Below are positions 6,998-21,678 of a stretch of 64,000 nucleotides of DNA, piece by piece. The position numbers and the translations under genes are program-made. A model generated the notes under the pieces. It made no database searches. It saw only the letters and a list, made by a program, of their open reading frames with translations, and was not told the origin of the DNA. The number at the start of each line of letters is the position of its first letter. The first letter of the stretch is position 1. This DNA comes from Hyphomicrobiales bacterium. GTDB taxonomy: Bacteria; Pseudomonadota; Alphaproteobacteria; Rhizobiales; Xanthobacteraceae. The stretch spans positions 62,001 to 126,000 of the forward strand of contig JACPOA010000031.1 of NCBI GenBank assembly GCA_016185205.1. The letters are read 5' to 3'.

Positions 6998-8005
6998 ATG
7001 AAGAAAAACGCGTTCAATCACTATGAGGTTTACGGCCGCCGAGGCGCCCACAAGCGCCACTCCACGGCGAGGCGCCCTTCCCTATTCGACATCCGCTCGG
7101 AGCTGATGCGCGCCCCGGGTGGATGCCAACATATTCCGAATCCCGTACCGCCGCACATTCTGGCCGGATTGCACCCAGACGTAGTGATCGAACAAGCTTT
7201 GACGCTAGCGGCGCAGGCGGTCGGCATTCGAATCGATACGCCGATCCTGTTGGCAGGTGTGATGACCTGGCCGGTCCTGCGCGAGGTGATCAAGGATAGC
7301 GAGGTGGAACGCCAGAAATATCTGGCATGGCGCGGGGATGCTGTTGCGTGGGCGCAGCGACTGTGGGGCGAACAGTTGAAATGCGTCGCCGAACACGTCG
7401 ATGAAGGACGGTTGCATTTACACTACTGGGTACTGCCCCCGCTTCGGCCGGACCGGCATCTGTCTATTTCCGACGTTGATTTTAGCCGGCGTGCGGCCAA
7501 GGCCGTCAAAGATGCCGGCGGCAACGGCCGCCAGCAACGGGCCGCAAGCGATCAGGCGATGAGGGAGTTCCAGGACAACTACTCGAGAGAGGTCGGATCC
7601 ATGCACGGCCTGGCGCGGCTCGGACCGCAGCGTCTGCGGCTAACGCGGCAGGAATGGAAAGATCAGGAGGCCGAACGCAAGAGGATCGCCGAAGCTTGGC
7701 GCACTCTCTATAGCAATCATGCCGAACTACAATCGGCCGCCAATGCGTGCGTGGCCAAACGGGTTGCCGAAGCACGAGCAGCCGCAGAAGCCACCGTAAA
7801 TGCTGCCACGAAAGCTGCCGACGAACGCGTCGCAATGATCAAAAGCAAGGGTGTTAATTTGATCGGCCAGTGGAAAACCCACACAGCGACTTTGAATAGC
7901 GCAATCAAGAACCATAAGGCCGTGATTGCCGAACAGGACGAGCGGCTCCAAGAGTTGGAGGCCGTGCTACGCGAACATGGATTGCTGATGGCACCAGCCA
8001 GGTAG
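6998..8005 (+). CDS. MobV/Pre-like plasmid recombination (relaxase) protein
   Basis: A 335-residue protein. Residues about 130-145 contain AEHVDEGRLHLHYWVLP, matching the His-rich metal-binding motif of Pre/Mob relaxases (normally E-DE-xPH-H). It is followed, as in that family, by a helix pair with LSISDVDFSRR and QDNYSREVGSMHGLARLG, then a basic segment (LRLTRQEWKDQE). The C-terminal 120 residues are an Ala-rich coiled coil. The N-terminus is divergent and no clear nicking Tyr motif is obvious. The upstream inverted repeat and the DUF3987 neighbour suggest mobilisation of the island by a helper conjugation system. GGAG precedes the ATG. Confidence 0.6.
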   Translation: MKKNAFNHYEVYGRRGAHKRHSTARRPSLFDIRSELMRAPGGCQHIPNPVPPHILAGLHPDVVIEQALTLAAQAVGIRIDTPILLAGVMTWPVLREVIKDSEVERQKYLAWRGDAVAWAQRLWGEQLKCVAEHVDEGRLHLHYWVLPPLRPDRHLSISDVDFSRRAAKAVKDAGGNGRQQRAASDQAMREFQDNYSREVGSMHGLARLGPQRLRLTRQEWKDQEAERKRIAEAWRTLYSNHAELQSAANACVAKRVAEARAAAEATVNAATKAADERVAMIKSKGVNLIGQWKTHTATLNSAIKNHKAVIAEQDERLQELEAVLREHGLLMAPAR

Positions 8006-8088
8006 GTGAACAACGGACATTTAACAAAACTACTGGTCGCCATGGTGGAGATTGGGGCTTGGGCTTCAACGATCGCTCTCGATTATGA

Positions 8089-9024
8089 TCATGCCGCCGC
8101 ACAGAACCGCTCGAAACGGAGTGCAAGCCGATCTCGATCTGGCTGATCCTTGACGCGGCTTGGCAGGTGGATGGACCCGCCATTCAATCGCTTCAGGGCC
8201 TCAAGCATCGGGCCGTCGTTCTGACCGAGTAACCGCGCCGATACATGTAGACGATAGTCTGGGTCGATGCCGATCAGATGGGCGTCGAATGCCGCATGAT
8301 GGATTTTCGAGAGCGGAATTCCGTTCGGAATCACCGGCTGGCCCAATTTCTCATCTTTGTCCGCGATGATATGTGCTGCGTCCAGCAAGAGAGATTCGGG
8401 TAAACCGGACAATGCGTAGCGACCATTGTAGGCCGTGATAACTGCTTCGCGGAATGATGCCTGGTGAAGCCTCTGTTTGACCGCACGCAACGCGTAGCGC
8501 CGTTCGAGCACCGACTCGGGCGGCGCTAAAGTTTCTTGATCGGGCATACCAAATGCAATGCGCGCCTTTAACGCTTTGCCGTCCCATCCGAAGATGAAAG
8601 TTGGCAACATGGCCTTGTAGCGGCCTGGCGCGATGCCGAGAAAATAGATGATCGGTATCCGGTTCTCATATGCTTCGCGAAGCCATCGGTTGTCGGCCGC
8701 GTCCGGATTTTGTCCCATGAAGGCGTAGTCAACGGTTTCGTCGCCTTCGAAAATTTGACGATGCACCTCGCGCTGGTCGTCATACCAAACTCTGCCACCG
8801 GGTTCAGGAAACACGGTCTTGATCGACAGCAGGAACTTCATTTGCTGCGGCTTGAAGATTCCGCACTGTGGATTGATGAGCGGAACGCGCTCACCGCCGA
8901 AAATAAAGCCAGGCTTTAGCTCGGTCGCCGTTAGATGATCGTGAACTTCGGCTAGCTGGCGGACGTGCTCGAATGCGGCCATTCGGATGAGCGTGTCAAA
9001 ATCTTGATCGCTCATCGCCGCCAC
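8089..9024 (-). CDS. HNH endonuclease, restriction-like
   Basis: A 311-residue protein. The C-terminal part has an HNH_2-type nuclease core: YNGRYALSGLP, LLDAAHI, then NGIPLSKIHHAAFD and DYRLHVS, the usual order in stand-alone HNH restriction-like enzymes. The N-terminal half (GFIFGGERVPLINPQCGIFKP...VWYDD...AFMGQNP) looks like the sensor region of modification-dependent or restriction-like HNH proteins, but I cannot name the domain. A GTG at 9024 with AGGGA 7 bases upstream is the better start; ATG at 9015 is possible. It follows an XRE gene by 61 bases in the same direction. No methyltransferase is nearby, so it may target modified or foreign DNA. Confidence 0.8.
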   Translation of the reverse strand: MAAMSDQDFDTLIRMAAFEHVRQLAEVHDHLTATELKPGFIFGGERVPLINPQCGIFKPQQMKFLLSIKTVFPEPGGRVWYDDQREVHRQIFEGDETVDYAFMGQNPDAADNRWLREAYENRIPIIYFLGIAPGRYKAMLPTFIFGWDGKALKARIAFGMPDQETLAPPESVLERRYALRAVKQRLHQASFREAVITAYNGRYALSGLPESLLLDAAHIIADKDEKLGQPVIPNGIPLSKIHHAAFDAHLIGIDPDYRLHVSARLLGQNDGPMLEALKRLNGGSIHLPSRVKDQPDRDRLALRFERFCAAA

Positions 9025-9085
9025 CGGTTTGTCCCTTAATATTTTGCTCGTTGTGCCAGTTTACGGTGCCACATGGGTGTCGGAA

Positions 9086-9352
9086 TTATTTTTTCGTTCG
9101 TGGGCTAGTCGCGCGCGCCGCTTCAGTACGACGAGCGCAAATTCCCAGACCTGTCCGCCCGTCGAACAAAAACTCTATACCCAAGCTTTCCAGTGCGTGC
9201 TGAAGGTCTCGTAGGGTGCGATCGTGAGGCACACGATTCCCCGCCTCGAAGTGCGCGATCGTTCTTGCCGACACTTTTGAGACCTCCGCCAAGTCTTCTT
9301 GGGAAAGGCCGAGCCAAGCGCGAGCAGAGCGGCACTGGTTTTCGTTAATCAT
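9086..9352 (-). CDS. XRE-family HTH transcriptional regulator
   Basis: An 88-residue protein with one Cro/CI-type helix-turn-helix over residues 8-62 (ARAWLGLSQEDLAEVSKVSARTIAHFEAGNRVP), a short strand (LGIEFLFDG) and a basic tail. It resembles the small controller proteins of restriction and toxin modules. It is the first gene of a leftward pair with the HNH nuclease. A perfect 16-bp palindrome in the divergent intergenic region, 15 bases upstream of its ATG, is its likely operator, so it probably regulates itself, the nuclease and perhaps the rightward cluster. Confidence 0.85.
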   Translation of the reverse strand: MINENQCRSARAWLGLSQEDLAEVSKVSARTIAHFEAGNRVPHDRTLRDLQHALESLGIEFLFDGRTGLGICARRTEAARATSPRTKK

Positions 9353-9366
9353 AATTGTGCGTTTTT

Positions 9367-9382
9367 ACCGCACATGTGCGGT
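9367..9382. promoter_or_regulatory. Perfect palindrome, likely XRE operator
   Basis: ACCGCACATGTGCGGT is a perfect 16-bp palindrome midway between the divergent XRE gene (start 9352) and the nuclease-like gene (start 9439). Further TTGTGCG-like half-sites lie on either side. Size and placement are typical of operators for small XRE dimers. Confidence 0.65.
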
Positions 9383-9438
9383 GTTGTGCTATGGTCTGGC
9401 TTGGACGGGATAACCACCGGCCGAGGAGGCCAAACCCA

Positions 9439-10305
9439 ATGAAGAAGTACCCTGAATTGAATGACGTTTCCCCGGCGGCGCTGATGCGCGCCGCCCAGAA
9501 TTCGGTTGCCGGCGCACTGGCCGGCGACTTCCCTACCGACCCGCTCATCGGGCTGGAGCTGTCGCGCGCCATCTCCTGCATCGGGAGCGTGGTGAAGCGG
9601 CACGGCAGGCTCATCGAGATGGGCATCGCTGGCGCGCTGATCGCGAGTGATCGTTTCATCGTGGTGCCCAATGCCGAGTTGCCGTTGACCAAGGGCGCCG
9701 CGCAGTTGCTCGACGCCAAGAACTCCGACGAAAACCTGTCCAAGATCAAGCTCTCGGTTGATTCGGAAGCCGACGGCATCGTGACTGTCGACTTGGTCGT
9801 TGTCGACCCCGAGGCGGGCTGGGCCGGAGCCTACGAGATCAAGCGCGGGAACGGGGTCACCGAACACGGCAAGCGGCGCCCCATCGTGCGCAAGCTGAAG
9901 GCTGCCCGTCTGGTGCTGGCCTCGTACGTCCGCCAACTCGGATATGGGCATGTCGAGACTGTCACCAGCGCGGTGATCGACTACTGCGGCGCTTCGGGTT
10001 TCGACCCGAATTTCACGCTTACGCGCGACCAACTCGATGCGCATTTCGGCGTGCCGGTGGTGGCCACGGTCGACGCCGTCACCGCCGCCGCCCGCAGCGC
10101 GCTGGAGGCCGAACTGCCGGCCCTGTTCGGGCCGGTCTTTGACCGCATGACGCTGCCGAACCACGAAGCGGCGGCGGTGCCGACAGCGGCCATCACCGTC
10201 CCGGCCGAAGAGGCGCCGAAGCACGCGGCCGTCTTGCGGACGCTGGCAGCACCGCCGACCGGCCCCGGCAAGCGGTCCGCTCGGGATCCCCAAACCCGGC
10301 ATTAG
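9439..10305 (+). CDS. PD-(D/E)XK-like hypothetical protein
   Basis: The ATG at 9439 is chosen because it has GAGGAGG-like sequence upstream and begins MKKYPELNDVSP; the frame is open further left but overlaps the operator. The 288-residue product contains GIVTVDLVVVD followed by AGAYEIKRG, the D...E-x-K spacing of PD-(D/E)XK nucleases, then LKAARLVLASYVRQLGY. The C-terminus is Ala/Pro-rich and disordered. I recognise no named family. It is the first gene of a rightward cluster with phosphoesterase, protease and exonuclease genes, which supports a DNA-processing role, but catalysis is inferred only. Confidence 0.7.
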   Translation: MKKYPELNDVSPAALMRAAQNSVAGALAGDFPTDPLIGLELSRAISCIGSVVKRHGRLIEMGIAGALIASDRFIVVPNAELPLTKGAAQLLDAKNSDENLSKIKLSVDSEADGIVTVDLVVVDPEAGWAGAYEIKRGNGVTEHGKRRPIVRKLKAARLVLASYVRQLGYGHVETVTSAVIDYCGASGFDPNFTLTRDQLDAHFGVPVVATVDAVTAAARSALEAELPALFGPVFDRMTLPNHEAAAVPTAAITVPAEEAPKHAAVLRTLAAPPTGPGKRSARDPQTRH

Positions 10306-10411
10306 GCCGGCGCGGCAACCGAAACACCAGACGGACGGCGCCACGGCGCCGTTCTCGTCCCCCTTCCCCCGCCTTCCAAAACATCTCGCTCTAGACAGTG
10401 GAGTTTGTGTC

Positions 10412-10909
10412 GTGTCTTCCAACCGTCTCAGTCGCATGGCCGCTCCGGCCGCCCCGCAACCGCCTCTGCCAGGCCGGACGGCTGCCGAAGTGGACCCTTC
10501 CTCCTCGCCGGCCGACGGCGGTCACAGTGTGCCACCGCTGCAGTGGTGGCGGCGCCTGCCGGCGCCTGCCTTCACCGGCGTGCATGTGGCCACCATCCGC
10601 AGAGCCATTGCCGGCATCAGCATCATCAACGAGCCGTGCTGGCCAACGGCCGTGAAAGGCAATCCGGTGGCGGCGGTCGGCGTGGCTCTGCGGGCAATTA
10701 AGCGCCGCCGCATACCCAGCCCTGGCTTCGATCTCGTGATGTCGGCGCTGTTGCGGTGCGCGATCGAAGGCAGCACCACCGCTGCTCTGGTCCTTGTATA
10801 CGCGGTCGGCCGCATGGCCGCCAAAGATCCTGGCTGCGCGACGGTTGCCGCATCGTGGCACACCACCACGGTCCCGCCGCAGGCCCGTCGTGCATCGAAG
10901 GGCGCATGA
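10412..10909 (+). CDS. Hypothetical protein
   Basis: A GTG at 10412 starts a 165-residue frame ending one base before the phosphoesterase ATG, which supports translation. The first 50 residues are Pro/Ala-rich; the middle (ATIRRAIAGISIINEPCWPTAVKGNPVAAVG...VMSALLRCAIEGSTTAALVLVYAVGRMA) has alternating hydrophobic helices that could be a small helical bundle. No family recognised. GC-rich frames overlap it in other phases, so the call rests on position and codon periodicity. Confidence 0.55.
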   Translation: MSSNRLSRMAAPAAPQPPLPGRTAAEVDPSSSPADGGHSVPPLQWWRRLPAPAFTGVHVATIRRAIAGISIINEPCWPTAVKGNPVAAVGVALRAIKRRRIPSPGFDLVMSALLRCAIEGSTTAALVLVYAVGRMAAKDPGCATVAASWHTTTVPPQARRASKGA

Positions 10910-10910
10910 G

Positions 10911-11672
10911 ATGCGGCTCCAAATCTTTTCTGATCTGCATGGCGACGTGAGGCCGCCCAAACACATCGAGGTCGCCCCTGGCGTCGATGCCGTGGTGGTG
11001 GCCGGCGATACCTGCGAAGGCGCCGAACGTGGCTTCGAGCGTCTGCGCCAGATTGTGCCGATGCAGTTGCCGATCGTGATGGTGATGGGCAACCACGAAT
11101 ATTACCGCCGCCACGTCGGCAGCGAATTGGCCGCGGCGCGTCGTGCCGCGCCGCTCTACGGCATCCATCTGCTTGAAGACGACGTCGTCACGCTCGCTAA
11201 CGTGAAGTTCGTCGGATGCTCACTTTGGACCGACTATGCGGTTTTTGGTGATACGAACGTGCCGCGCGCCATGCGCGCGGCGTCTGATGGTCTCAACGAC
11301 CATCGCAAGATCACCTGGGCCAAGCAGCCCTGGCAACGCTTCCGGCCGCAGGAGGCTTTGCTGTTGCATAGGCAGTCGCGCGCTTTCATCAATGCAGCGC
11401 TGACGGAGCCGTTCACTTCGGTCGTGTTGACCCACCATGCACCGCATCCCGGCTCGCTCCACCCGCGCTACCAGAACGACGTTCTGTCCGCGGCCTACGT
11501 CTCCGACCTGACGGCGGTGATCCAAGCCGGTAAGCCGGACCTGTGGGTTCACGGTCACGTCCATGCGTCGTTCGATTACCACGTTGGAGGAACGCACATC
11601 GTCTGTAATCCGCACGGCTACGGCGCCGAGAACCCCCAGTTCGATCCGGCGCTCGTGGTTGAGGTGGGCTGA
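10911..11672 (+). CDS. Calcineurin-like metallophosphoesterase
   Basis: The ATG at 10911 gives MRLQIFSDLHGD, the proper start of the fold. All metal-binding motifs are present in order in the 253-residue protein: D-x-H (SDLHGD), GDT (VVVAGDTCEG), GNHE (MVMGNHEYY), LTHHAPH and the GHxH box (VHGHVHASFD). Relatives hydrolyse phosphodiesters or phosphomonoesters in nucleotides, nucleic acids or proteins. The start lies one base after the preceding stop and the stop overlaps the next ATG, so the three genes are translationally coupled. Coupling to an unfoldase-protease and an exonuclease makes a nucleic-acid or nucleotide substrate plausible, not proven. Confidence 0.92.
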   Translation: MRLQIFSDLHGDVRPPKHIEVAPGVDAVVVAGDTCEGAERGFERLRQIVPMQLPIVMVMGNHEYYRRHVGSELAAARRAAPLYGIHLLEDDVVTLANVKFVGCSLWTDYAVFGDTNVPRAMRAASDGLNDHRKITWAKQPWQRFRPQEALLLHRQSRAFINAALTEPFTSVVLTHHAPHPGSLHPRYQNDVLSAAYVSDLTAVIQAGKPDLWVHGHVHASFDYHVGGTHIVCNPHGYGAENPQFDPALVVEVG

Positions 11673-13915
11673 TGTCTGCGGTCCATGTGCGCATGCTTGC
11701 CGCCTCTGCACGGCCGCTCGCCGAGGTACTGATCGACGCCCTACGTGCCGGCAACACCGCGCGTCTGAAGCGTCAGACAAGCTCGTCGCGCAGCACTCGT
11801 GATGACGATCAACTCCACTTGCGGCTCGACGACGAGCTTGATGTCGTGGGAGATGATACCGATGCATTTCAGGTCCTGCGGCCCGACGAGGTCGCGGCAG
11901 CGGTGTTACTCGGGCGGGCACTCGACCACCACCGCGACATGCTGGCCAAGCTGCAGAATTCTGACACTATCGCGATCATCGAGGTGCCCGGAAACGAATT
12001 TGTCGACCTCATCGCTCGGCTGATCAGGCTCCAGGTGGTTGGAACCGACGCACGCGTCATCGATGACGACGCCTTGCCGAAGGACGGCACGCTTGCTGCC
12101 CCGCGCACGGTGGTGATTTTCAAGAGGAAGGACGAGGGTAAGGCCAAGAAGTCGGCAAGCGACAATGCCGAATTTGCCGCCGCGGTGCAGTGGCGCAGCG
12201 CCATCATCGGCATCGCCACGGACTCCGACCGTTTGCTGCCACCCAATCTGGTGCGCCTAGCCGACTGCAGGATTGTTGTGCCGCCATTCGATGGATCAGC
12301 CGTGGCTGCGGTGATCGAGGCGATAACCGGCCGGCACCCCGGCCCGGTTGACGATGAGCTTGCCCGCCGCGCCACTCTGGAAAACCTGATGATCGCAGTC
12401 CGCGCCGATTTCGGCGCCGAGCGTTCGTTGGCACGGCTCACACATCTGCTCGACCATAAAGCCGCCAATGCAGAGCCGGCACCTCGGCTCTCTGAGCTTC
12501 ATGGCCTAGGAGAGGCGAAAGACTGGGGCCTTGCACTGGCACGCGACCTTAAGGATTACGCCGCTGGACGCCTGCCATGGGCTTCCGTCGACAAGGGCGC
12601 CCTTCTTACGAGCGCCCCTGGGCGCGGAAAAACATTTTTTGCGCGTGCTTTGGCGCGCGAGGCGAATGCTTTGGCGAGCGAGGCAAAAATTCACTTTGTC
12701 GCGACCAGTTACGGACAATGGCAAGCCTACCGCGAGGGCCATCTCGGTCATGTGACACAGGCGATCCGAAACGTTTTCGCGGAAGCACAGAAGAATAGTC
12801 CGGCGATCCTGTTTATTGACGAGATCGACACCATTCCAGCCCGCGGTAGCGGCAAGTGGAATGATGATTGGTGGACCAGCATTACCAACACGCTGCTCGA
12901 ATGCCTGGACGGCTTTGAACGGCGCGAAGGCGTGGTCGTGATTGCGGCGTGTAATGATCCCTCGCGGCTCGATCCGGCGCTGGTGCGCGCTGGCCGCCTC
13001 GACCGTCGCATCCACATTCCGCTTCCCGATATTCCCGGGTTGATCGGGATTTTCCGCACCTATCTCGGCAGCGACCTGGAAAGCGCCGATCTGCGCGCGG
13101 CCGCTCTCGCCGCCCGTGGCCACACCGGCGCTGATATCGAGCGTTGGATCCGCGATGGGCGGCGCAAGGCTCGCGTCGCTAGTCGCCCCCTAACCTTCCA
13201 GGACCTGCTCGAAGCCGTACGCGACGGCGAGCCCGAATGGCCGGCCGAGGTCCGTCGCCGGGTTGCCTATCACGAGGCCGCACATACTCTCGCCATGGTG
13301 GCGGTCGGAATTGCAGAACCGAAGTCGCTTTCGATCGGCGGCAATGGCGGTCTCGCCGAAAGCGGCCCCGGCGAGATGCGCTCGCTCACCCGTGCTCACC
13401 TCGAAAAATATCTCGTCGTCCTGTTGGCGGGTCGAGCGAGCGAGCAACTCATCTTCGGAGAAGCAACCGCCGGCGCCGGCGGCTCCGAGGACAGCGACCT
13501 CAGCCGCGCCACGAAACTCGCAACCCAGATCGAGACCGCATATGGGCTGGGGTCTTATGGATTGATCTGCGTCGGCGGAGAGACAACGCGCGACCTGCTG
13601 CTGTTCGAGCATCTCCGCAACGCGGTCAACAGCTCGCTCGAACGTGCCCATGCCGCCGCGCTTGAACTTCTTTCAACCAACCGCAGCACGCTCAATGCCC
13701 TGGCTGACGCCCTGTTTGCTGGCGGTTATCTCGACCGCGGTGAAATCGAGGCGATCCTGGCGCGGACGCCGCTGCACACGAAAGAAAAGACGGGAGCGCC
13801 GGCGACCTCCATTCAACAGCCCGACACCGAGCCCGGCAAGCCGGAGATCGTCCCCGCGACGGCACCCGACAGCGCTATCCCGGCATCCGAGGTGGCGGGC
13901 CTCCCCTCGTCGTGA
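11672..13915 (+). CDS. FtsH-like AAA+ ATPase with M41 zinc protease domain, no membrane segment
   Basis: A 747-residue protein. Residues 1-270 are a variable N-terminal region without the transmembrane helices of true FtsH. The AAA+ module has Walker A APGRGKT (315-321), Walker B ILFIDE (379-384) and the second region of homology DPALVRAGRLDR (434-445). The M41 peptidase follows with the zinc motif HEAAH (534-538) and a downstream acidic ligand region SEDSDLSRATKLA. The C-terminus is Pro/Thr-rich. Its ATG overlaps the stop of the phosphoesterase. True FtsH is a membrane quality-control protease; this soluble version in an accessory operon is more likely a regulator or effector that unfolds and degrades specific proteins. 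Confidence 0.9.
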   Translation: MSAVHVRMLAASARPLAEVLIDALRAGNTARLKRQTSSSRSTRDDDQLHLRLDDELDVVGDDTDAFQVLRPDEVAAAVLLGRALDHHRDMLAKLQNSDTIAIIEVPGNEFVDLIARLIRLQVVGTDARVIDDDALPKDGTLAAPRTVVIFKRKDEGKAKKSASDNAEFAAAVQWRSAIIGIATDSDRLLPPNLVRLADCRIVVPPFDGSAVAAVIEAITGRHPGPVDDELARRATLENLMIAVRADFGAERSLARLTHLLDHKAANAEPAPRLSELHGLGEAKDWGLALARDLKDYAAGRLPWASVDKGALLTSAPGRGKTFFARALAREANALASEAKIHFVATSYGQWQAYREGHLGHVTQAIRNVFAEAQKNSPAILFIDEIDTIPARGSGKWNDDWWTSITNTLLECLDGFERREGVVVIAACNDPSRLDPALVRAGRLDRRIHIPLPDIPGLIGIFRTYLGSDLESADLRAAALAARGHTGADIERWIRDGRRKARVASRPLTFQDLLEAVRDGEPEWPAEVRRRVAYHEAAHTLAMVAVGIAEPKSLSIGGNGGLAESGPGEMRSLTRAHLEKYLVVLLAGRASEQLIFGEATAGAGGSEDSDLSRATKLATQIETAYGLGSYGLICVGGETTRDLLLFEHLRNAVNSSLERAHAAALELLSTNRSTLNALADALFAGGYLDRGEIEAILARTPLHTKEKTGAPATSIQQPDTEPGKPEIVPATAPDSAIPASEVAGLPSS

Positions 13916-13989
13916 GGCCGGGGCTAGCAGTCTGCAATTCTGGTGAGCACTAACTTTCTGAAATAATCGACCAAAGATCGGGCTGAGTA

Positions 13990-15378
13990 ATGGCATATAT
14001 TTTCTACGATGTTGAAACGACGGGGACGCGTACTGCATTCGACCAGATCCTCCAGTTCGCCGCCATCAAAACCGATGACGACTTGAACGTCGTCGAAACC
14101 TTCAACATCCGCTGCCGGCTGTTGCCCTATGTCGTGCCCGCCCCGGGAGCGCTGCTAGTCACCGGCACCACGATTGCCGACATTACCACCTGCCCGGTGT
14201 CGCATTTCGAGATGATGCGCCAGGTGCATGCCAAGATGCATCATTGGAGCCAGGGCGGCGCCATCTTTATCGGTTGGAACAGCATTCGTTTCGACGAAAA
14301 ACTGTTGCGACAGGCGTATTATCAAACGCTACTGCCGGTGTATCAAACCAATACCGCTGGCAATGGACGTGCCGACATGATGCGGATGGCGCGGGTCGTG
14401 ACCGCCTGCGCGCCGAATGTCATCAGCGTCCCTCTTCAGGCCGATGGCAAGCGCACCTTCAAGCTCAGTTTGGTCGCGGCGGCCAACAACGTCGCCCTTA
14501 ACAACGCCCACGATGCCTTGGCGGACACCGGTGCTACGCTTGGCGTTGCTCGTCTAATTAAACAACGCGCGCCTGCGCTATGGGACGCCTTGATCTTGAA
14601 CGCCCGCAAGTCTGGCGTCTTGAAGCTGTTTCAAGATAATAACCCGGTCTTGCTGCTGAGCGAGCACTTCTCCAACGTGCCGTCCAACCATGTCGTGACG
14701 GTGATTGCCAGAAATCTCGACAACCAGAATGAGTGGGCGGCATGCGATCTGCAATTCGATCCGGCTCGTTATCTCGACGCCAGCGACGACGATCTCCGCG
14801 CGGCGATCGATGGCCCCCTCCAGGTGATCCGCCGCGTGTCGGTCAACTCGCAGCCCGGGCTTTTGCCCATTAATTTTGCTCCGGAGGATGTTCAAGGCGG
14901 GCGGCTCTCGATGGAAATGTACCAAGCCCGAACAAAAACGATTCGTGAGCATGCAACGTTCCGGAAACGTATCTCGCACCTGCTCGCCGGGCGATTTACG
15001 GATCGCGCCGAATCCATCCATATCGAAGAACAACTCTACTGCGGCTTTCCGTCCAATTCCGATCAAACCCACATGAATTCGTTTCAGCGGCACGATTGGG
15101 ATAATCGCATTGGCGTCATCAAGGACATCGAGGATAGGCGTTATCGGCAGTTCGGACGCCGGATCATCGCGTCCGAACGGCCGGACTTGCTGACTGCCGA
15201 ACAGCGCCTACGGTGGAAGTCGTGGTGTCGAAGTCGCCTTCTGTGTAACGAAGACGTGCCGTGGATGACCGTTTCGTCTGCGCTTGAGGAAATCAGTCGC
15301 CTGGAAGAAGATGCCGATCCAGACCGCCGATATCAATTGTCAGAATTAGAGTGCTTCATCAAAAGAATGGAGCATTAG
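13990..15378 (+). CDS. Exodeoxyribonuclease I-like DEDDh 3'-5' exonuclease
   Basis: A 462-residue protein that follows the order of E. coli ExoI (SbcB): FYDVETTGTRTAFDQILQFA at the start (catalytic D and E), GWNSIRFDE around residue 100 and NAHDALADTGAT (H and D) near 175, giving the DEDDh set. The rest matches the SH3-like and helical C-terminal parts in outline (PINFAPEDVQGG, EEQLYCGFPS). ExoI degrades single-stranded DNA 3' to 5'. It lies 74 bases after the AAA+/M41 gene in the same direction. An accessory ExoI copy in an alphaproteobacterium is uncommon enough to suggest a mobile-element or defence role. Confidence 0.88.
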   Translation: MAYIFYDVETTGTRTAFDQILQFAAIKTDDDLNVVETFNIRCRLLPYVVPAPGALLVTGTTIADITTCPVSHFEMMRQVHAKMHHWSQGGAIFIGWNSIRFDEKLLRQAYYQTLLPVYQTNTAGNGRADMMRMARVVTACAPNVISVPLQADGKRTFKLSLVAAANNVALNNAHDALADTGATLGVARLIKQRAPALWDALILNARKSGVLKLFQDNNPVLLLSEHFSNVPSNHVVTVIARNLDNQNEWAACDLQFDPARYLDASDDDLRAAIDGPLQVIRRVSVNSQPGLLPINFAPEDVQGGRLSMEMYQARTKTIREHATFRKRISHLLAGRFTDRAESIHIEEQLYCGFPSNSDQTHMNSFQRHDWDNRIGVIKDIEDRRYRQFGRRIIASERPDLLTAEQRLRWKSWCRSRLLCNEDVPWMTVSSALEEISRLEEDADPDRRYQLSELECFIKRMEH

Positions 15379-15486
15379 CTCCGGTCCCTCAGCGCACCGG
15401 TGAAAACGGCGGTGGCGACCGAAATGCGGGCATCGCAGAAGATCCGGCGAGCGAACTGTAAACGCAAAATAGCCGAGGAGTGGACC

Positions 15487-15684
15487 GTGAGCGTTGACGA
15501 AAGGGCGAAGCGTGAAGAGTGCGTGCGCGCTGCCATCGCCTCCGCAAGAATCGAAGGGCGGGAGCCATCCCCGTTCACTCTAGCCCTCTTGGAGAGGTAT
15601 GTGACCGGCGAAATGACTATAGACGAGGCCATGAAAGATGTGTTGAGGGAATATGGACTGCCGGCGGCGTCGACGGGCGAATGA
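15487..15684 (+). CDS. VbhA-like antitoxin
   Basis: A GTG at 15487 with GAGGAG about 7 bases upstream gives a 65-residue protein; the frame is open to 15400 but without a good ribosome site. It has the VbhA pattern: KREECVRAAIASARIEG, then PSPFTLALLERYVTGEMTIDEAMKDVLREYG. VbhA-type proteins inhibit Fic-domain AMP-transferases through an S/T-x-x-x-E-G motif, here ASARIEG. No Fic gene lies in the window, so this is an orphan or a solitary domain protein used for another purpose. Last intact gene of the rightward cluster. Confidence 0.7.
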   Translation: MSVDERAKREECVRAAIASARIEGREPSPFTLALLERYVTGEMTIDEAMKDVLREYGLPAASTGE

Positions 15685-15709
15685 GAACCTGAAAGGGAGA
15701 AAGCCCAGC

Positions 15710-15859
15710 ATGAACACCGTGGTCGGCATCATCGCCATCATCACCGGCGGCCTCTGCGTCGGAGCTTGATCCGTCAACGCTCGCTAGGCGGAAATCTACC
15801 AGCGCGACGTCGACATCAATTGCCGTGCAATCACCGCGCTCGAAAGGTTTTCCGTTTGA
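15710..15859 (+). pseudogene. Small membrane-protein gene with two in-frame stops
   Basis: An ATG with GGGAG upstream opens MNTVVGIIAIITGGLCVGA, stops at TGA (15767-15769), continues SVNAR, stops at TAG (15785-15787) and runs on as AEIYQRDVDINCRAITALE to a TGA at 15857. Reading the stops as the single-base mutants of TGG and CAG would restore a 49-residue protein with one N-terminal membrane helix. The coding-like tail after both stops argues for a decayed gene; a 19-residue hydrophobic peptide is the alternative. The remaining bases up to 15996 show no convincing gene. Confidence 0.4.
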
Positions 15860-15996
15860 TGAACATCGCAGAAGCTCCATTATGGAATTTTTCCGCAACT
15901 GAGGCCCGCAAGAGGTGGGACCGCGACACGTGTAGTTCGCATCGAGGACCGCGAGCGTCGGCGACGAAAGTTAGGTGCGATGCCAGAAAAGGCGCG

Positions 15997-17019
15997 TCAT
16001 CGCCACCCAAGCCCCGTCGCGACATGCTTCAAGATCGCCTCGATCACATGCGCGTTGTAGTCGACGCCGAGCTGATTGGGCACGGTCAGCAGCAGCGTGT
16101 CCGCTTCCGCAATCGCCTCGTCCTTCGCAAGCTGCTCGATCAGCACGTCCGGCTCGGCGGCGTAGCTGCGGCCGAAGATGGCGCGCTCTTTTTCGCTGAG
16201 CAATCCGATCTGGTCGCCCTCCTCGCCGCCGCGCCCGAAATACATGCGGTCGCGCTCGTCGACCAGCGCGAAGATGCTGCGGCTGACCGACACCCGCGGC
16301 GTGCGCGCGTGCCCGGCCGCCGTCCACGCCGCACGATAAATCCGGATCTGCTCCGCCTGCTGGACGTGGAACGGCTTGCCGCTCTCGTCGATCTTGAGCG
16401 TCGAGCTTTGCAGGTTCATGCCGAGCTTGGCCGCCCATTCCGCGGTGGCGTTGGTGCCGGCGCCCCACCAGATGCGCTCGCGTAGGCCCGCCGAATACGG
16501 CTCGAGGCGCAGCAGGCCCGGCGGATTCGAAAACATCGGCCGCGGGTTGGGCTTGGCGAAGCCCTCGCCGCGCAGCACCTCCAGGAAGACCTCGGCGTGG
16601 CGCCGCGCCATGTCGGCATCGGTCATCCCCTCCGGCGGGGCGTAGCCGAAGTGGCGCCAGCCATCGATCACCTGCTCGGGCGAGCCGCGGCTGATGCCGA
16701 GCTGCAGGCGTCCGCCGCTGATGATGTCGGCGGCGCCGGCGTCCTCCGCCATGTAGAGCGGGTTCTCGTAGCGCATGTCGATGACCGCAGTGCCGATCTC
16801 GATCCGCTTGGTCTTGGCGCCGACCGCCGCCAGCAGCGGAAACGGCGAGCCGAGCTGGCGGGCGAAGTGATGGACGCGGAAGTAGGCCCCGTCCGCGCCG
16901 AGCGCCTCGGCCGCGACGGCGAGCTCGATCGATTGCAGCAGGGCGTCCGACGCCGACCGCGTCTGCGACTGCGGCGATGGGGTCCAATGGCCGAAGGAGA
17001 GGAAGCCGATGTGTTTCAT
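15997..17019 (-). CDS. LLM-class flavin-dependent oxidoreductase (luciferase-like)
   Basis: The ATG at 17019 gives MKHIGFLSFGHW, the normal start; the frame is open a little further upstream. The 340-residue protein has luciferase-like features: AAEALGADGAYFRVHHFARQ near residue 40, RIEIGTAVIDMRYENPLYMAEDAGAADIISGGRLQLGISRGSP in the TIM barrel, and an ERIWWGAGTNATAEWAAKLGMNL FMN-phosphate region. Such enzymes use FMNH2 and O2 to oxidise varied small molecules; the substrate is unknown. GC content is higher than in its accessory neighbours. It is read in the same direction as the SPARTA operon, 70 bases downstream of it, but has no evident functional link. Confidence 0.9.
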   Translation of the reverse strand: MKHIGFLSFGHWTPSPQSQTRSASDALLQSIELAVAAEALGADGAYFRVHHFARQLGSPFPLLAAVGAKTKRIEIGTAVIDMRYENPLYMAEDAGAADIISGGRLQLGISRGSPEQVIDGWRHFGYAPPEGMTDADMARRHAEVFLEVLRGEGFAKPNPRPMFSNPPGLLRLEPYSAGLRERIWWGAGTNATAEWAAKLGMNLQSSTLKIDESGKPFHVQQAEQIRIYRAAWTAAGHARTPRVSVSRSIFALVDERDRMYFGRGGEEGDQIGLLSEKERAIFGRSYAAEPDVLIEQLAKDEAIAEADTLLLTVPNQLGVDYNAHVIEAILKHVATGLGWR

Positions 17020-17089
17020 GGGGGTGTATATGGGGGTTAGGCGTGCAGACCGCCTTGGCACGCTACCTCAAGTTAGAGTGACGGTAGAG

Positions 17090-18640
17090 TCAGACGTAAA
17101 ATTTGAAAGGCTGGCGTTCTGCGCCTTTGGCCGATCCCATAACGAGAACTTCTCCAACCATTTTTGCAAACCGTACCGTCACTGGCAGACCATCATTAAA
17201 GTTGCACGAATTGTAGTTGATTTTGGTGAGGCCCATGATGTCTTCGAGCACGCGCTGCATTGGCGGCATCGCCTGCTTGCTTCGCAGAAGCGTAATGAAT
17301 AGCGGATTGGGCGTTTCCGGCCCTATGTATGTGTCAAGCTGCGGCACATATCCGGTTGTCCAAATATTTGCATTTCGATCATCGAGGATAAGTGCGGTCC
17401 CGCGCAAGACCGGATAGTCCCCGTCACGGAATAGTTTGTTCTCGCCATGTGTGTTCTTGATGCGAACACCAACGACGTTGGTGTCGGTTGGAGCAGCTTC
17501 CTCAAAGGCTTTCCATTCGTCGTCTCGGAACGAGGTCTGGCCGTGGATAAACAACTCCTTCGGAGGCTCTTTGTGTTTTTCGGCATATGTCGCGAGCACC
17601 TTTTCGAGCAAGGCCTTCGCTGCCGGCGGCTGCAGATGGTACTCATAGTCGCCCGTGCGCCAAGGACCGTTCGCCCCGCGAAAAACGACACCGTCGCCTT
17701 CGTTTAGAAACATTTGGGCCGCGCAGCACGCGTGGCCATTCGGGTCATTTGGCAGGTTCTTGTAAACAAGGCCGATGTAACAGACGCCAGGCCGAACCTC
17801 ATGCAACCTCCATGGCGGCGCTGGTTGCGTCTTGTAGTAGAGGCCGGTCGTCAAATTCCACGCGACAGTCGCGGCATCTTGCGTGCGACGGATCGGGAAC
17901 CCCGCGGAGTTTTTAAATGCTTCCGGGTTGAGCGTCGTTTCGCGCAAGACTTGCGTTGGCGCGATTGTAAGGCATGCCGCTTTAACCTGGCGATGGAAGT
18001 CGGGCACGTCCTCGAAGATACCTTCTGGCTCTTGATCGACGATGCCCTGCAGTAGCGGAATATCGGTTGGTCTCTTCTGCTTCTTGCCGAAGTCTCCCCT
18101 AACCAACGGGAGGCCGGTACGTTTTGCCTTGGGCGTGCACCGCTCGTAGACGATCTCCGGCACGACCAAAATCCAGACGTCGATCGCCCGCTCTTCATTC
18201 TGGATGTGCCGCCGGATGCGATCGGTATAAAGGTGAACGACTTTTGCAACTGACTCGTGCTGATTGACCGTGCGCGAGGCCTCATCGATAGCCTTGTATT
18301 CAAGTGTGCAGGTGACGAGTTCGTTCTCATTCACGGTGATCCCGAACGCCTCCTCCAACCCAGGAAAATTGGCGAGGTGCAGCCGATCCTGCTTTTCGCC
18401 TCTCTTCGGCGGAGGCACCTCAACGCGTTTTTTGATCTGGGCTAGCCAGCTTCTAAACAACTTGGCGCCGTCAACTGTGGCAACTACGCCAACGCGAATT
18501 GCAATCGAACGCTTCGCTTTCTCGTGCGGCCCGTAAAGAAAGAGACCATCTTTGGGATGCGCGGTCGTCTGGCCAGAGCCGAATTCTAACCTCGGCTCTT
18601 GGAGGTGCAGAACTTGCAAAGTACGTTCAGGAAACTTCAT
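17090..18640 (-). CDS. Short prokaryotic Argonaute (SPARTA MID-PIWI subunit)
   Basis: A 516-residue protein with the size and layout of short pAgos, which have only MID and PIWI domains. Residues about 140-275 form the MID part ([14 protein letters not shown]...[11 protein letters not shown]) and about 280-516 the PIWI part ([20 protein letters not shown], then [15 protein letters not shown] and [26 protein letters not shown]). The catalytic Asp positions of slicing Argonautes are replaced (IGLVYK, HGQTSF), so it should bind a guide and target without cutting. It ends hydrophobically at PFKFYV, as Argonautes do, the C-terminus reaching into the MID pocket. Its ATG overlaps the TIR-APAZ stop by four bases, as in known SPARTA operons. 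Confidence 0.87.
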
Positions 18641-20037
18641 GCGGCTTCCCCCTCAGGCTCGGGCTCGGGTTCCGGCCGACCGAGGGTCGAGTCATCCACC
18701 TCCTCGTCCTCGTCGGAAAGCACGTTGGGTAAGGGTGTACTAACAGGCGATGTAAACAGCAGAGGTGCCGCGTCGAGAAGAAGATTCGCGGTCGGCCCCA
18801 GCTTCAACTCGACAAAAGCGGATTCGCCCGCCAAGAGTTCAAGGAATGCCATGGTGCGGCCATGCCATTGCTTATTTCGCCAGCCCTTGCACATCGACCG
18901 TCGTAGCCGATGCTGCTTCTTTGCTTCGTCATACGGATCGCCCGCATCCTCGCCTTTGGGCGGTGCAAACAGAACGCGCGATTTCAGCTTGAAGTGGTGA
19001 AACGGCCAGAAAGCTGGAATCCCGCTGACGCCAAACTGCCAGACGTGGCCTTTGGCTTCGTTGCGAAGCATCGAAGATCGGCGGTCGCCCTGACGGCCCC
19101 ACGGAATTTTCTGGCCGATCTTTAGGAGCTTTTCGCCGACGTGAAAGCCCGATTCTTTCGAGTAGACGTATTCGAATAGGCCACGGGCGCGGCAGTATTG
19201 ATGCCACGCCTTGCGGTACATCGCATTCACGATGTTAGACGCGTCTTTTCCGCGCAGGTTTAGTTGCGGTGCTCCCTCTTCGAGAAATTTCAGCAATTCG
19301 AATGTGTGGGTCACCTTGAAGCGTCCGGTTGCGATAAGCGCTTCGTTGACCTCCTCAACAGTCGCAAAGCAGAAAAATCCGTGTTCGCGCGGTGTCGCGG
19401 GAAATGGCAGATCGCGGCAGGCGGTCGCCATCGCGCCGCTATCCATCGCACCGTTCGGTTCAAAATAATGCAGCTCGTCGGGGCACTCGGCAACACGCAT
19501 CCAGTTTGACGTGAGCCGCTCGGGCTCATTCATCAGCGGGATCGCGCCCCTTCGCCGAAACGCCTCCCAATTCGGATTTATTTTTACCCTTGACGGATCG
19601 CCCTTCACTTTTTGCCGCGCGAGGGTGTCGAGCAGCTTGGCCAGCCCTTCCGCCCAACCGCGCACGAAGTCGACATATTGCACTTCACCGATACCCAGAA
19701 TCTTTTTGTATGGTTTGAGGCGCAACGGAATTACAAACTTCGGGTCGGGAATTTCCTTTGCCAAATCGAGCGCAATGCCGATCTCTTCCTGCACGTTATC
19801 CCGCGCAAGAGTTTCGTCAGAACAACACAACAGCATCTTGACGGCACGGTTTTGGAGCGTGCCCGTGATCTCTTTTCGCCACCGCGTGCCCGCTTGTAGG
19901 GTGACAATATCCGCGAAGACTTCGTAACCGGCGGCCTCCAACCGAGGCGCGAGCCAAAGCGTAAATTCGTCATCGCCCGGCGTTGCCTTGCTGATGAACA
20001 AAACGGAACGCGCAGTTGGTTCGGTAATACCGGTCAT
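18637..20037 (-). CDS. TIR-APAZ protein (SPARTA NADase subunit)
   Basis: The ATG at 20037 ([20 protein letters not shown]) is preferred over a TTG 21 bases upstream, giving 466 residues. Residues about 10-120 are a TIR domain: [24 protein letters not shown], the WRKE motif with probable catalytic Glu (E56) and [12 protein letters not shown]. Residues about 170-430 fit the APAZ region that pairs with short Argonaute in place of PAZ/N. The last 27 residues are strongly acidic with a PEPEPEPE repeat; in characterised SPARTA an acidic tail lies in the nucleic-acid channel and keeps the complex inactive. On guide-target binding, SPARTA complexes oligomerise and hydrolyse NAD(P)+, killing the invaded cell. 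Confidence 0.87.
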
Positions 20038-20128
20038 ATTTCGCTGATGGATGGCCAAGGGGGAACGGCGCGCAAATGGCGCTCCGAATCACCCCCATCG
20101 TAGCGTGAAGCCGAGAATGCTTCGAATC

Positions 20129-20160
20129 TGGTTGCGGGAGTTGGATTTGAACCAACGACC
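20129..20160 (-). pseudogene. tRNA-fMet 3' fragment (32 nt), possible att remnant
   Basis: Read on the minus strand, this is the T arm (GTTGG-TTCAAAT-CCAAC), the 3' acceptor strand TCCCGCA and an encoded ACCA of initiator tRNA; the unpaired A72 opposite C1 in the complete gene is diagnostic of fMet. Nothing of the anticodon or D arm follows at 20161. Such 3' fragments are left when an element integrates in a tRNA gene. It lies at the border between accessory and core DNA. Confidence 0.75.
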
Positions 20161-20170
20161 CCCAGCGCGG

Positions 20171-20270
20171 GTGGGTTAGCGCCGAAGGCGCGTAACCCAC
20201 CGGCCGAGTGGCAAGCTGCGAATCCTATGGTGGATTACGGCGCTACGCGCATTGCCTGTGGCGCCGTAAT
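20171..20270. repeat. REP-like pair of imperfect palindromes
   Basis: GTGGGTTA (20171-20178) pairs with TAACCCAC (20193-20200), and ATTACGGCGC (20234-20243) pairs with GCGCCGTAAT (20261-20270). Repeats of this type (GTGGGTTA...TAACCCAC) are common between genes in Bradyrhizobium-like and other genomes. The second palindrome reaches the broken 3' end of the cyanase remnant. Confidence 0.55.
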
Positions 20271-20436
20271 ATTTGAACGGCAGGAATTTGCCCGACATGG
20301 TGATCTTGACCCGGTCGCCCTTCGGATCGGGCAGCCGCTCCATGACCATGTCGAAATCGATCGCCGACATGATGCCGTCGCCGAATTCCTCCTCGATCAG
20401 CGCCTTCCAGGCCGGCCCGTTGACCATCATCAGCTC
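20248..20436 (-). pseudogene. cynS: Cyanate hydratase (cyanase) C-terminal remnant
   Basis: About 63 codons match the catalytic C-terminal domain of cyanase: [40 protein letters not shown] and [17 protein letters not shown]. Active-site Arg and Glu positions are present, but the N-terminal helical domain (about 85 residues) and the terminal PEYG-type end are missing, replaced by unrelated sequence and the REP-like palindrome. The fragment cannot form the decamer needed for cyanate breakdown. It shows deletion or insertion at this junction. Confidence 0.85.
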
Positions 20437-20565
20437 TAACCGAAGGCACGGTCGATCCAGCACCGCTGCGTCTACGCTTGTAGCCCCGTGTAGCCCCAGA
20501 GGCGTAATTCGCGAACAATGTGAGATTCGCTCGGGCTACAAATCGTAAATTCTCATTTGATTACA

Positions 20566-20642
20566 TGGCGGTCCCGAGAGGAGTCGAACCTCCGACCTTC
20601 GGTTTAGGAAACCGCTGCTCTATCCTGCTGAGCTACGGGACC
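20566..20642 (-). tRNA. tRNA-Arg (anticodon CCT)
   Basis: The minus strand folds as a cloverleaf: acceptor GGTCCCG paired with CGGGACC, D stem GCTC/GAGC, anticodon loop TTCCTAA with CCT at positions 34-36, T arm GGAGG-TTCGACT-CCTCT, and an encoded CCA at 20568-20566. It reads AGG codons. tRNA-Arg(CCT) genes are frequent island targets, but this copy is intact and no second copy of its 3' end is seen. Confidence 0.95.
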
Positions 20643-20688
20643 GTGCGGCTGCGATTTAGCATAGGGCCGCGCGCGATGCACCCCGCCG

Positions 20689-21678
20689 CTATTGCGGCTT
20701 GATGCCCGACAGCGCCACCACGTCCTTCCACATCGCCCGCTCCCTGGCGGCATAGGCGATCGCCTCTTCCGGCGTCGAGGACATGCTGCGCGCGCCGACC
20801 ACCTGGAAGCGCTTCTGCAGTTCCGGATCGGCCGCTATCTTCTTCATGGCGGCGGACAGCTTATCGATGATCGGGCGCGGCGTGCCGGCCGGGAAGACAT
20901 AGGCCGCCCAGGAGGTGACGACGAAATCCTGCAAGCCCGCCTCCGCCATGGTGGGCACGTCCGGCATTGTAGGCCAGCGCTTGGCCGAGGTGACCGCCAG
21001 CGCGCGCATCTTGCCGGACTCGATGGTGGAGATATAGGAGGTGAGGTTATCGAGCGCGAAATTCACGTCGCCCGCCAGCATGGCGGGGATGGTATACGAT
21101 GCGCCGCGGAACGGCACGTGGACGGCGTCGAGGCCGGTGCGCTTGGCAAACAGCACGCCGGACAGATGCGGCGAGGTGCCGACGCCGGGACTGCCGAAGC
21201 TGATCTTGCCCTTCTGCTTCGCCCAGGAGAGAAATTCCGCCATGGTCTTGGCCGGCACGTGATCGGTGGCGACGACGAAGACATTGGGCAATTCCCAGGT
21301 CAGCGAGGCCGGGATCATGTCGCGTTCCGGATCGTACGGCATCTTGCTGTAGAGGAACTGGTTGATCGCGAAATGGCCGATGGTGGCCGCGCCGATGGTG
21401 TAGCCGTCGGGGGGGCTGCCGGTGACGGCGGCGATGCCGATATTGCCGCCGGCGCCGGGCCGGTTCTCGATCACGAAGGGCTGCCCGAATATGTCCTTGA
21501 GACGCTCGGCCAGGATGCGCGACAGCACGTCGGTCGAACCGCCGGCCGGATAGGGGATGATGATCTTCACCGTATGGTCTGGCCAGGCGCCCTGCCCGCG
21601 CGCAGCCGTCGCAATGAAGATGCTCGCAGCCGCCGCGGACTGCAGGAACGCTCGGCGACTAGATGACAGGCGCTGCAT
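20689..21678 (-). CDS. Bug-family tripartite tricarboxylate transporter substrate-binding protein
   Basis: A 329-residue periplasmic protein. The N-terminus SSRRAFLQSAAAASIFIATAARG is a twin-arginine-like or long Sec signal. The mature part has the Bug/TctC hallmarks: VKIIIPYPAGGSTDVLSRILAERL, VIENRPGAGGNIG, then PYDPERD and VPTMAEAGL. These proteins capture carboxylates or similar solutes in the periplasm; without a TctAB gene nearby, the membrane partner and ligand are unknown. Such orphan Bug proteins are abundant in this bacterial group. Confidence 0.93.
   Translation of the reverse strand: MQRLSSSRRAFLQSAAAASIFIATAARGQGAWPDHTVKIIIPYPAGGSTDVLSRILAERLKDIFGQPFVIENRPGAGGNIGIAAVTGSPPDGYTIGAATIGHFAINQFLYSKMPYDPERDMIPASLTWELPNVFVVATDHVPAKTMAEFLSWAKQKGKISFGSPGVGTSPHLSGVLFAKRTGLDAVHVPFRGASYTIPAMLAGDVNFALDNLTSYISTIESGKMRALAVTSAKRWPTMPDVPTMAEAGLQDFVVTSWAAYVFPAGTPRPIIDKLSAAMKKIAADPELQKRFQVVGARSMSSTPEEAIAYAARERAMWKDVVALSGIKPQ

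Follow-up and report, generated by a model that had tools for sequence, protein, structure and literature searches.

Does the two-gene locus described here encode an intact SPARTA system (short Argonaute plus TIR-APAZ) acting as an NADase, and how does it relate to sister systems that carry an additional Mrr nuclease domain? We analyzed a 64,000-nucleotide stretch of DNA from a Hyphomicrobiales bacterium (hereafter the window; positions 62001-126000 of a 302-kb contig in a 4.38-Mb draft genome). The preliminary description had proposed a TIR-APAZ gene followed by a short pAgo gene with an ATGA overlap, and this layout is indeed present on the minus strand (Table 1), the Ago start being coupled to the TIR-APAZ stop. 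Both frames, of 466 and 516 aa, are open and full length, as had also been stated. Compared with four Mrr-less relatives (L034, L096, L023 and L028), the two genes display 0.20-0.31 nonsynonymous differences per site against 0.73-0.84 synonymous ones, the latter near saturation, suggesting that both are constrained. Ago relatives are encoded at 49 loci in named genomes, and all 49 carry TIR-APAZ, whole or partial, immediately upstream of Ago; given this conserved order and the PADLOC and PDB scores reported below, a chance resemblance is excluded. Judging from the sequence comparisons that follow, we regard the operon, with a probability of about 0.8, as a plain TIR-APAZ SPARTA of the NADase type that is intact.

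Table 1. Features of the operon and of its upstream flank (positions in the window, unless residues are indicated)
Feature	Location	Strand	Remarks
Short pAgo gene (MID-PIWI)	17090..18640	-	516 aa + stop; PIWI without catalytic tetrad
ATGA overlap, TIR-APAZ stop/Ago start	18637..18640	-	4 bases
TIR-APAZ gene	18637..20037	-	466 aa + stop; ATG at 20037
TIR-APAZ domains	residues: TIR ~10-140, linker, APAZ to ~430, acidic tail from ~443		Approximate limits, from the MapSPARTA alignment and the predicted model
Glu85 codon, aligned to MapSPARTA catalytic Glu77	19783..19785	-	Coordinate computed from residue 85 and gene start 20037
WRKE, residues 53-56, start of helix alpha-B	19870..19881	-	Coordinate computed from residue numbers
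Alternative upstream start, in-frame TTG at 20058	20038..20058	-	Would give 473 aa
tRNA-like piece	20129..20160	-	~90 bases before the operon
Cyanate lyase gene fragment	20179..20463	-	C-terminal domain only
tRNA-Arg(CCT)	20566..20642	-	In 10 of 14 homologous stretches from same-genus genomes

In the TIR-APAZ protein, a Pfam search recognized TIR_2 (E 2.6e-19, residues 14-136) and returned no match for APAZ. The PADLOC TIR-APAZ model PDLC02400 matched residues 5-460 (TIR-PNTD1-PNTD2) with 683 bits; the alignment begins only at model position 181 of 639, because the model contains an extra N-terminal part of the Mrr type. SPARTA chains came first in a PDB sequence search (best E 7.7e-43, over residues 8-448 of 466). 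They also occupied the top 35 places among the best 50 rows listed by Foldseek for the predicted model of the protein (mean pLDDT 82, pTM 0.63). Full-length SPARTA matches reached TM-scores of only ~0.4-0.5, a probable effect of a different placement of the TIR and APAZ lobes, and 8jr8_B (252 residues) aligned over 272 columns with a TM-score of 0.83 by the target's own length. The C-terminal tail is acidic and contains STLGRPE; a TLGRP-like motif recurs in 38 of the 50 proteins aligned, that of the window among them. In the resting state of solved SPARTA, target DNA is blocked by a C-terminal APAZ helix (available portion of PMC11156904).

The short Argonaute was matched by the PADLOC model pAgo_I (PDLC02378; 693 bits, residues 8-516) and, in the PDB sequence search, by SPARTA chains (8j8h_A and 8ifk_B) over residues 9-516 of 516, with a best E of 1.1e-108. 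Pfam gave nothing above its cut-off for this protein, and no PIWI match. Among the three domains named in the preliminary description, TIR was thus recovered by Pfam, but APAZ and PIWI were not; PADLOC recovered both TIR-APAZ and pAgo_I, and the APAZ and PIWI assignments rest on the PADLOC models together with the matches to PDB sequences and folds. The proposed SPARTA identity is well supported by these results, as is the lack of slicing residues: the positions of the DEDX tetrad are occupied by V292, Y334, Q368 and K493. The pocket for the guide 5′-phosphate is kept (reference Y148, H207, K211 and N468 correspond to Y165, H216, K220 and N477), and the C-terminal residue is V516 for I507. Several backbone-contact positions are changed, e.g., R72 to L89 and K395 to N401.

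The window shares its domain order, inactive PIWI, 5′-phosphate pocket, catalytic Glu on alpha-C and post-APAZ tail with MapSPARTA and Crt-SPARTA (S2A; PDB 8fex, 8ffi, 8spo, 8isy and 8u7b) and with BabAgo SPARTA (8qlo). However, its TIR-APAZ protein is only 22-26% identical to solved SPARTA, in full-length matches, and differs by W53-R54 for F45-W46, by R52/E118 for D44/R114 and by the STLGRPE motif of its tail. SPARDA, SPARHA and SPARSA likewise place an APAZ effector beside a slicer-inactive short pAgo, but their effectors are DREN, HNH and SIR2 rather than TIR, and their Foldseek matches are far weaker. In the window, APAZ is preceded by TIR only, with no SIR2, DREN or HNH domain.

For residue comparisons, we used 8fex (MapSPARTA, titled Maribacter polysiphoniae in Foldseek) as the reference chain. 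In Crt SPARTA, the catalytic Glu77 sits on alpha-C (available portion of PMC11156904); E77A is the catalytic mutant, and F45, W46, T11 and Y105 are NAD-site residues (partial text of PMC10474274). The catalytic Glu is retained in the window, where Glu85, within NVQEEI (residues 81-86), aligns with Glu77 of MapSPARTA, and Thr19 aligns with Thr11. The preliminary description had instead taken WRKE as the catalytic motif. This was the wrong stretch: its Glu56 pairs with Asn48 of MapSPARTA and is not the catalytic Glu, and the corresponding column varies among 41 relatives (E 27, Q 7, L 2, I 2, D 2, V 1). The correspondence between Tyr105 and Tyr110 of the window is alignment-dependent, being found by phmmer and not by MAFFT.

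Several neighboring positions depart from the reference. W53 aligns with F45, one residue before the W46 position, and the latter is occupied by Arg54, an Arg shared by all 41 aligned relatives. The D44 position is Arg52 (R in 40 relatives, K in one), the R114 position Glu118 (D 31, E 8 and G 2 in 41 relatives) and the N116 position Gln120. As a guess from the alignment, Arg52 and Glu118 might form a swapped salt bridge at the TIR-TIR interface. In Crt SPARTA, changing Trp46 to alanine removed nearly all NADase activity, and changing R114 to Glu and N116 to Ala abolished activity completely (available portion of PMC11156904). Arg54 at the W46 position and Glu118/Gln120 at R114/N116 are features that may speak against an NADase-type SPARTA.

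In most named relatives, an additional Mrr nuclease domain is present at the N terminus. In many of them, TIR-APAZ has at least 170 extra residues N-terminal to TIR, and Pfam Mrr_cat was found on this extension in three sequences, two over the curated cut-off and one at 20.3 versus 21 bits. The Mrr-TIR-APAZ architecture is already in print: in the accessible parts of the sources, several TIR-APAZ proteins are described with an N-terminal PD-(D/E)XK domain whose catalytic residues are conserved (PMC2743648), and S2A is listed as "(Mrr-)TIR-APAZ" (PMC12205087). These alphaproteobacterial pairs of Mrr-TIR-APAZ and short pAgo (accessible parts of PMC12205087 and PMC2743648; PADLOC PDLC02416, "REase-TIR") are close kin of the window. 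Their Mrr_cat domain shows the D..QxK motif, and their TIR is devoid of the catalytic Glu. In the window, by contrast, Glu85 is retained and TIR begins ~10 residues past the ATG, with no N-terminal Mrr_cat domain. The D..QxK motif was found by pattern in 41 of 49 Mrr-linked rows and, with Ala for Gly before Asp, in four more; it is not readable in the four others (L044, L050 and L111/L112, the last two being parts of the same place).

The presence of Mrr and the identity of the residue at the Glu column are associated in the proteins compared. An initial set comprised 41 open TIR-APAZ proteins (eight of the 49 were left out: L004, L006, L029, L040, L042, L047, L049 and L050); in it, the column holds E in 10/10 proteins without the extension, and Glu is absent from 30/30 with it (D 24, N 4, V 2). 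The last protein, from L044, has D and lacks the full extension; a Mrr remnant is readable behind an interruption. The set was then widened to 72 TIR domains; it contains some near-identical rows and also interrupted loci with an open TIR. Left out were L004, L040, L042, L047 and L105, in which the locus was cut or interrupted or TIR was incompletely matched, and L110 and L112, each the second part of a place that was already represented. Rows were called Mrr-linked when an open upstream frame matched one Mrr extension by phmmer (E <= 1e-3), and L044 was counted among them. Glu is kept in all 26 Mrr-less domains, as in the window, and replaced in all 46 Mrr-linked ones (D 37, N 4, V 3, L 2).

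The possibility that TIR simply drifts was addressed by comparing 15 Mrr-less proteins (window included) with 35 distinct open Mrr-linked ones. Conservation in 14 or more of the 15 was seen at 124 columns. Five of these (T19, M68, E85, F114 and Q120) are absent from all 35 Mrr-linked proteins. Each of the five falls within TIR, and T19 and E85 belong to the NAD site; the window keeps four and has L114 in place of F. A further measure gives the same picture: of 13 columns kept by less than one-quarter of the 35, 10 are in TIR and three in APAZ (275, 332 and 375). Since 61 of the 124 conserved columns are outside TIR and the losses fall mostly within it, the change is concentrated in TIR, including the NAD site. 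Asp at the Glu site can retain residual activity, so that the D class alone is no proof of loss. Yet other members have N, V or L at this column, and Thr19 was lost in parallel, which makes loss of the NAD site in the Mrr branch likely. In the literature searched, we found no report of a loss of the TIR catalytic Glu in this branch; a mention is possible in Koopal et al. 2022, reportedly the study cited for the characterization of SPARTA.

In a maximum-likelihood tree of 70 Ago rows, obtained in a single tree search, the 41 Mrr-linked rows and one cut locus make up a single clade (100/99). Closest to this clade among the Mrr-less rows are the window and L034, from a Devosia MAG; the fork joining both to the Mrr clade has a support of 97/83, and L034 stands nearer (93/73). 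The L034 Ago frame stops at ~464 residues, so that of these two lineages only the window is full length. As the Mrr branch is one clade, we rejected the idea that Mrr gain and Glu replacement became associated through many independent events; the tree points to one joint change followed by later drift, with D, and N, V and L in sub-branches.

These sequence comparisons lead us to favor, with reasonable but not high confidence, a single effector swap from NADase to nuclease, in which Mrr would have been gained, TIR would now be a pseudoenzyme still assembling the complex, and target recognition would fire the nuclease. The identity of the putative Mrr nuclease rests on the Pfam Mrr_cat matches and the D..QxK motif. 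A profile search of the PDB found no relatives of the Mrr part at E <= 0.01, its matches starting at position 165 or later, and a search with a single Mrr sequence returned only two chance-level rows. The predicted model of Mrr-TIR-APAZ is weak (mean pLDDT 71, pTM 0.41); the best 50 rows listed for it by Foldseek are SPARTA or other APAZ complexes or TIR domains, with no stand-alone nuclease.

Could the window itself already be on the way to such a change? A SPARTA with a weak or dead NADase, acting solely by target binding or through another partner, would represent a step toward the Mrr-fused branch. It would account for the Arg at the Trp46 position and the Glu at the Arg114 position, and it would fit with a sister branch in which both NAD-site residues, Glu and Thr, are gone, with the departure of the window at one of the five Mrr-lost columns (L114) and with its long end branch (0.5 changes per column, in a tree for which the program warns on long rows). 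However, Glu85 and Thr19 are present in 15/15 Mrr-less near relatives, window included, and each is missing from all 35 distinct Mrr-linked proteins. Such a retention is hard to explain without catalysis, and we regard a weak or dead NADase as unlikely.

The window could also descend from a Mrr-TIR-APAZ member that shed its nuclease domain. In identity, the window lies about as near to one side as to the other, its Ago being 66-70% identical to that of Mrr-linked loci (30 loci with single matches, whose TIR-APAZ is 45-56% identical) and 71% to that of the Mrr-less L034, and fragments, a cyanase piece and a tRNA-like piece, lie upstream of the operon. Yet tblastn with one Mrr extension revealed no Mrr remnant in the 960 bases upstream nor in the whole window, in contrast with L044, where one is still readable. 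Moreover, the window agrees with the Mrr-less proteins at T19, M68, E85 and Q120 and falls outside the Mrr clade of the Ago tree (100/99), making this scenario very improbable.

The plain NADase-type operon probably reached this genome by horizontal transfer, as inferred from its composition, its rarity and the broken synteny around it. Its G+C content is 0.55-0.57, versus 0.64-0.68 rightward and 0.69 in a luciferase-like gene leftward. In 35 other genomes of the same genus, weak Ago matches were found in three (26 to 49% identical). TIR-APAZ matches (E <= 1e-20) were detected in 15 of 397 genomes of the order and in three of 398 genomes sampled across the phylum, the window's genome being included in both counts. 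Thirty plasmid records match, of which 26 are predicted to be conjugative, suggesting that relatives travel, partly on plasmids. Thirteen of the 30 were retrieved; the plasmid records examined label the Mrr-fused members by their TIR domain only. One scan of viral contigs, and the phage records, gave no match to the peptide patterns.

We compared the flank with 14 stretches surrounding the orthologues of the neighboring transporter gene in same-genus genomes. A nuclease gene adjoins the transporter gene in 12 of them, and none contains SPARTA genes, several contigs ending soon past the tRNA-Arg. The DNA of L081 is alignable up to ~20468 of the window and no further; the break lies ~100 bases beyond the tRNA-Arg, just before the cyanate lyase fragment and the tRNA-like piece. 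The latter may correspond to a tRNA 3′ half (T arm, acceptor and CCA), with a possible resemblance to initiator tRNA-Met. Neither ARAGORN nor Rfam calls a tRNA there. With up to 1 mismatch allowed over 25 bases, the piece occurs only once in the genome, and a looser pattern adds a single other site, whose T arm differs. Integration of a mobile element at the tRNA-Arg was considered and rejected, the 3′ end of this tRNA being repeated nowhere else in the window. No integrase was found by a Pfam scan among the 10 proteins of 6998-21678. That the operon is a decaying, unexpressed copy, as the gene fragments on one flank and the interruption of several related loci might suggest, is most improbable in view of its full-length frames, coupled start and strong synonymous/nonsynonymous contrast.

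By analogy with solved and tested SPARTA relatives, an NADase-type operon of this kind would work as follows. The TIR-APAZ protein and the short Ago would form a heterodimer, in which the Argonaute would hold a 5′-phosphorylated RNA guide. Pairing of the guide with invading single-stranded DNA would displace the APAZ tail and the sensor loop, and four heterodimers would then assemble, allowing the TIR domains to pair up. Glu85 and neighboring residues would hydrolyze NAD(P)+, and the resulting loss of NAD(P)+ would kill or stall the cell, conferring protection by abortive infection.

The operon itself belongs to a known system type and is ordinary as a system. It adds one intact, divergent SPARTA, probably of the NADase type, with no close copy in the 35 other genomes of its genus. 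Its value lies in its position as an outgroup, the NADase-side neighbor of a branch whose effector has apparently changed. Comparison with the Mrr-fused sisters raises the question of whether an immune sensor can switch its output, from draining NAD to cutting nucleic acid, when a new effector is added and the previous one retired but its domain kept as a scaffold. If this is true, the published SPARTA mechanisms would not be transferable to the Mrr-fused members, and the full-length operon of the window, standing beside the Mrr clade, would make the effector swap directly testable.

Among the relatives of the operon (loci L002-L050 and L096-L125), the state of the catalytic glutamate in the TIR domain (Glu85 in the window, aligned with Glu77 of MapSPARTA) follows the presence or absence of an upstream Mrr part, scored as an open frame with a phmmer match to one Mrr extension (E <= 1e-3). 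The residue is substituted in all 46 Mrr-linked TIR domains, whereas the Mrr-less ones retain it without exception (26/26). In the tree, the Mrr-linked rows are held by a single clade.

At two TIR interface positions, R52 and E118 of the window TIR-APAZ carry charges opposite to those of D44 and R114 in MapSPARTA. The alignment of near relatives shows a basic residue at the R52 position in 41/41 and an acidic one at the E118 position in 39/41, and, judged from sequence, this reversal may represent a swapped salt bridge.

Some relatives are damaged or partial. Of the 49 loci from named genomes, 9 have an interruption or an internal deletion in the frame of TIR-APAZ or of Ago, seven of these 9 being Mrr-linked (L006, L029, L042, L043, L046, L049 and L050); at the other two, L004 and L047, the Mrr part was not found, L004 being additionally cut by the contig. 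Moreover, the Mrr domain of L044, which we counted as Mrr-linked, is only a remnant, and the Mrr-less L034 has a short Ago frame.

Features around the operon in the window
Feature	Position	Remark
HNH endonuclease gene	8089-9024	within stretch of lower G+C
Metallophosphoesterase gene, then directly AAA + peptidase M41 gene (FtsH-like)	10794-13915	weak IetA matches
Exonuclease I-like (SbcB) gene	13990-15378	PADLOC RTasSbcB, 364 bits
Small gene with VbhA antitoxin domain	15400-15684	
tRNA-3'-half-like piece	20129-20160	just before operon
Cyanate lyase C-terminal fragment	20179-20463	just before operon

The tRNA-like piece presumably resembles initiator tRNA-Met, and the genome contains two more cyanate lyase matches at other places, both within open frames. 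Among 43 genomes of the genus, the SbcB-like gene was found in 3: the genome of the window itself and two others, where the identity is 35-38%. The adjacent metallophosphoesterase and FtsH-like genes possibly constitute a further defence pair.
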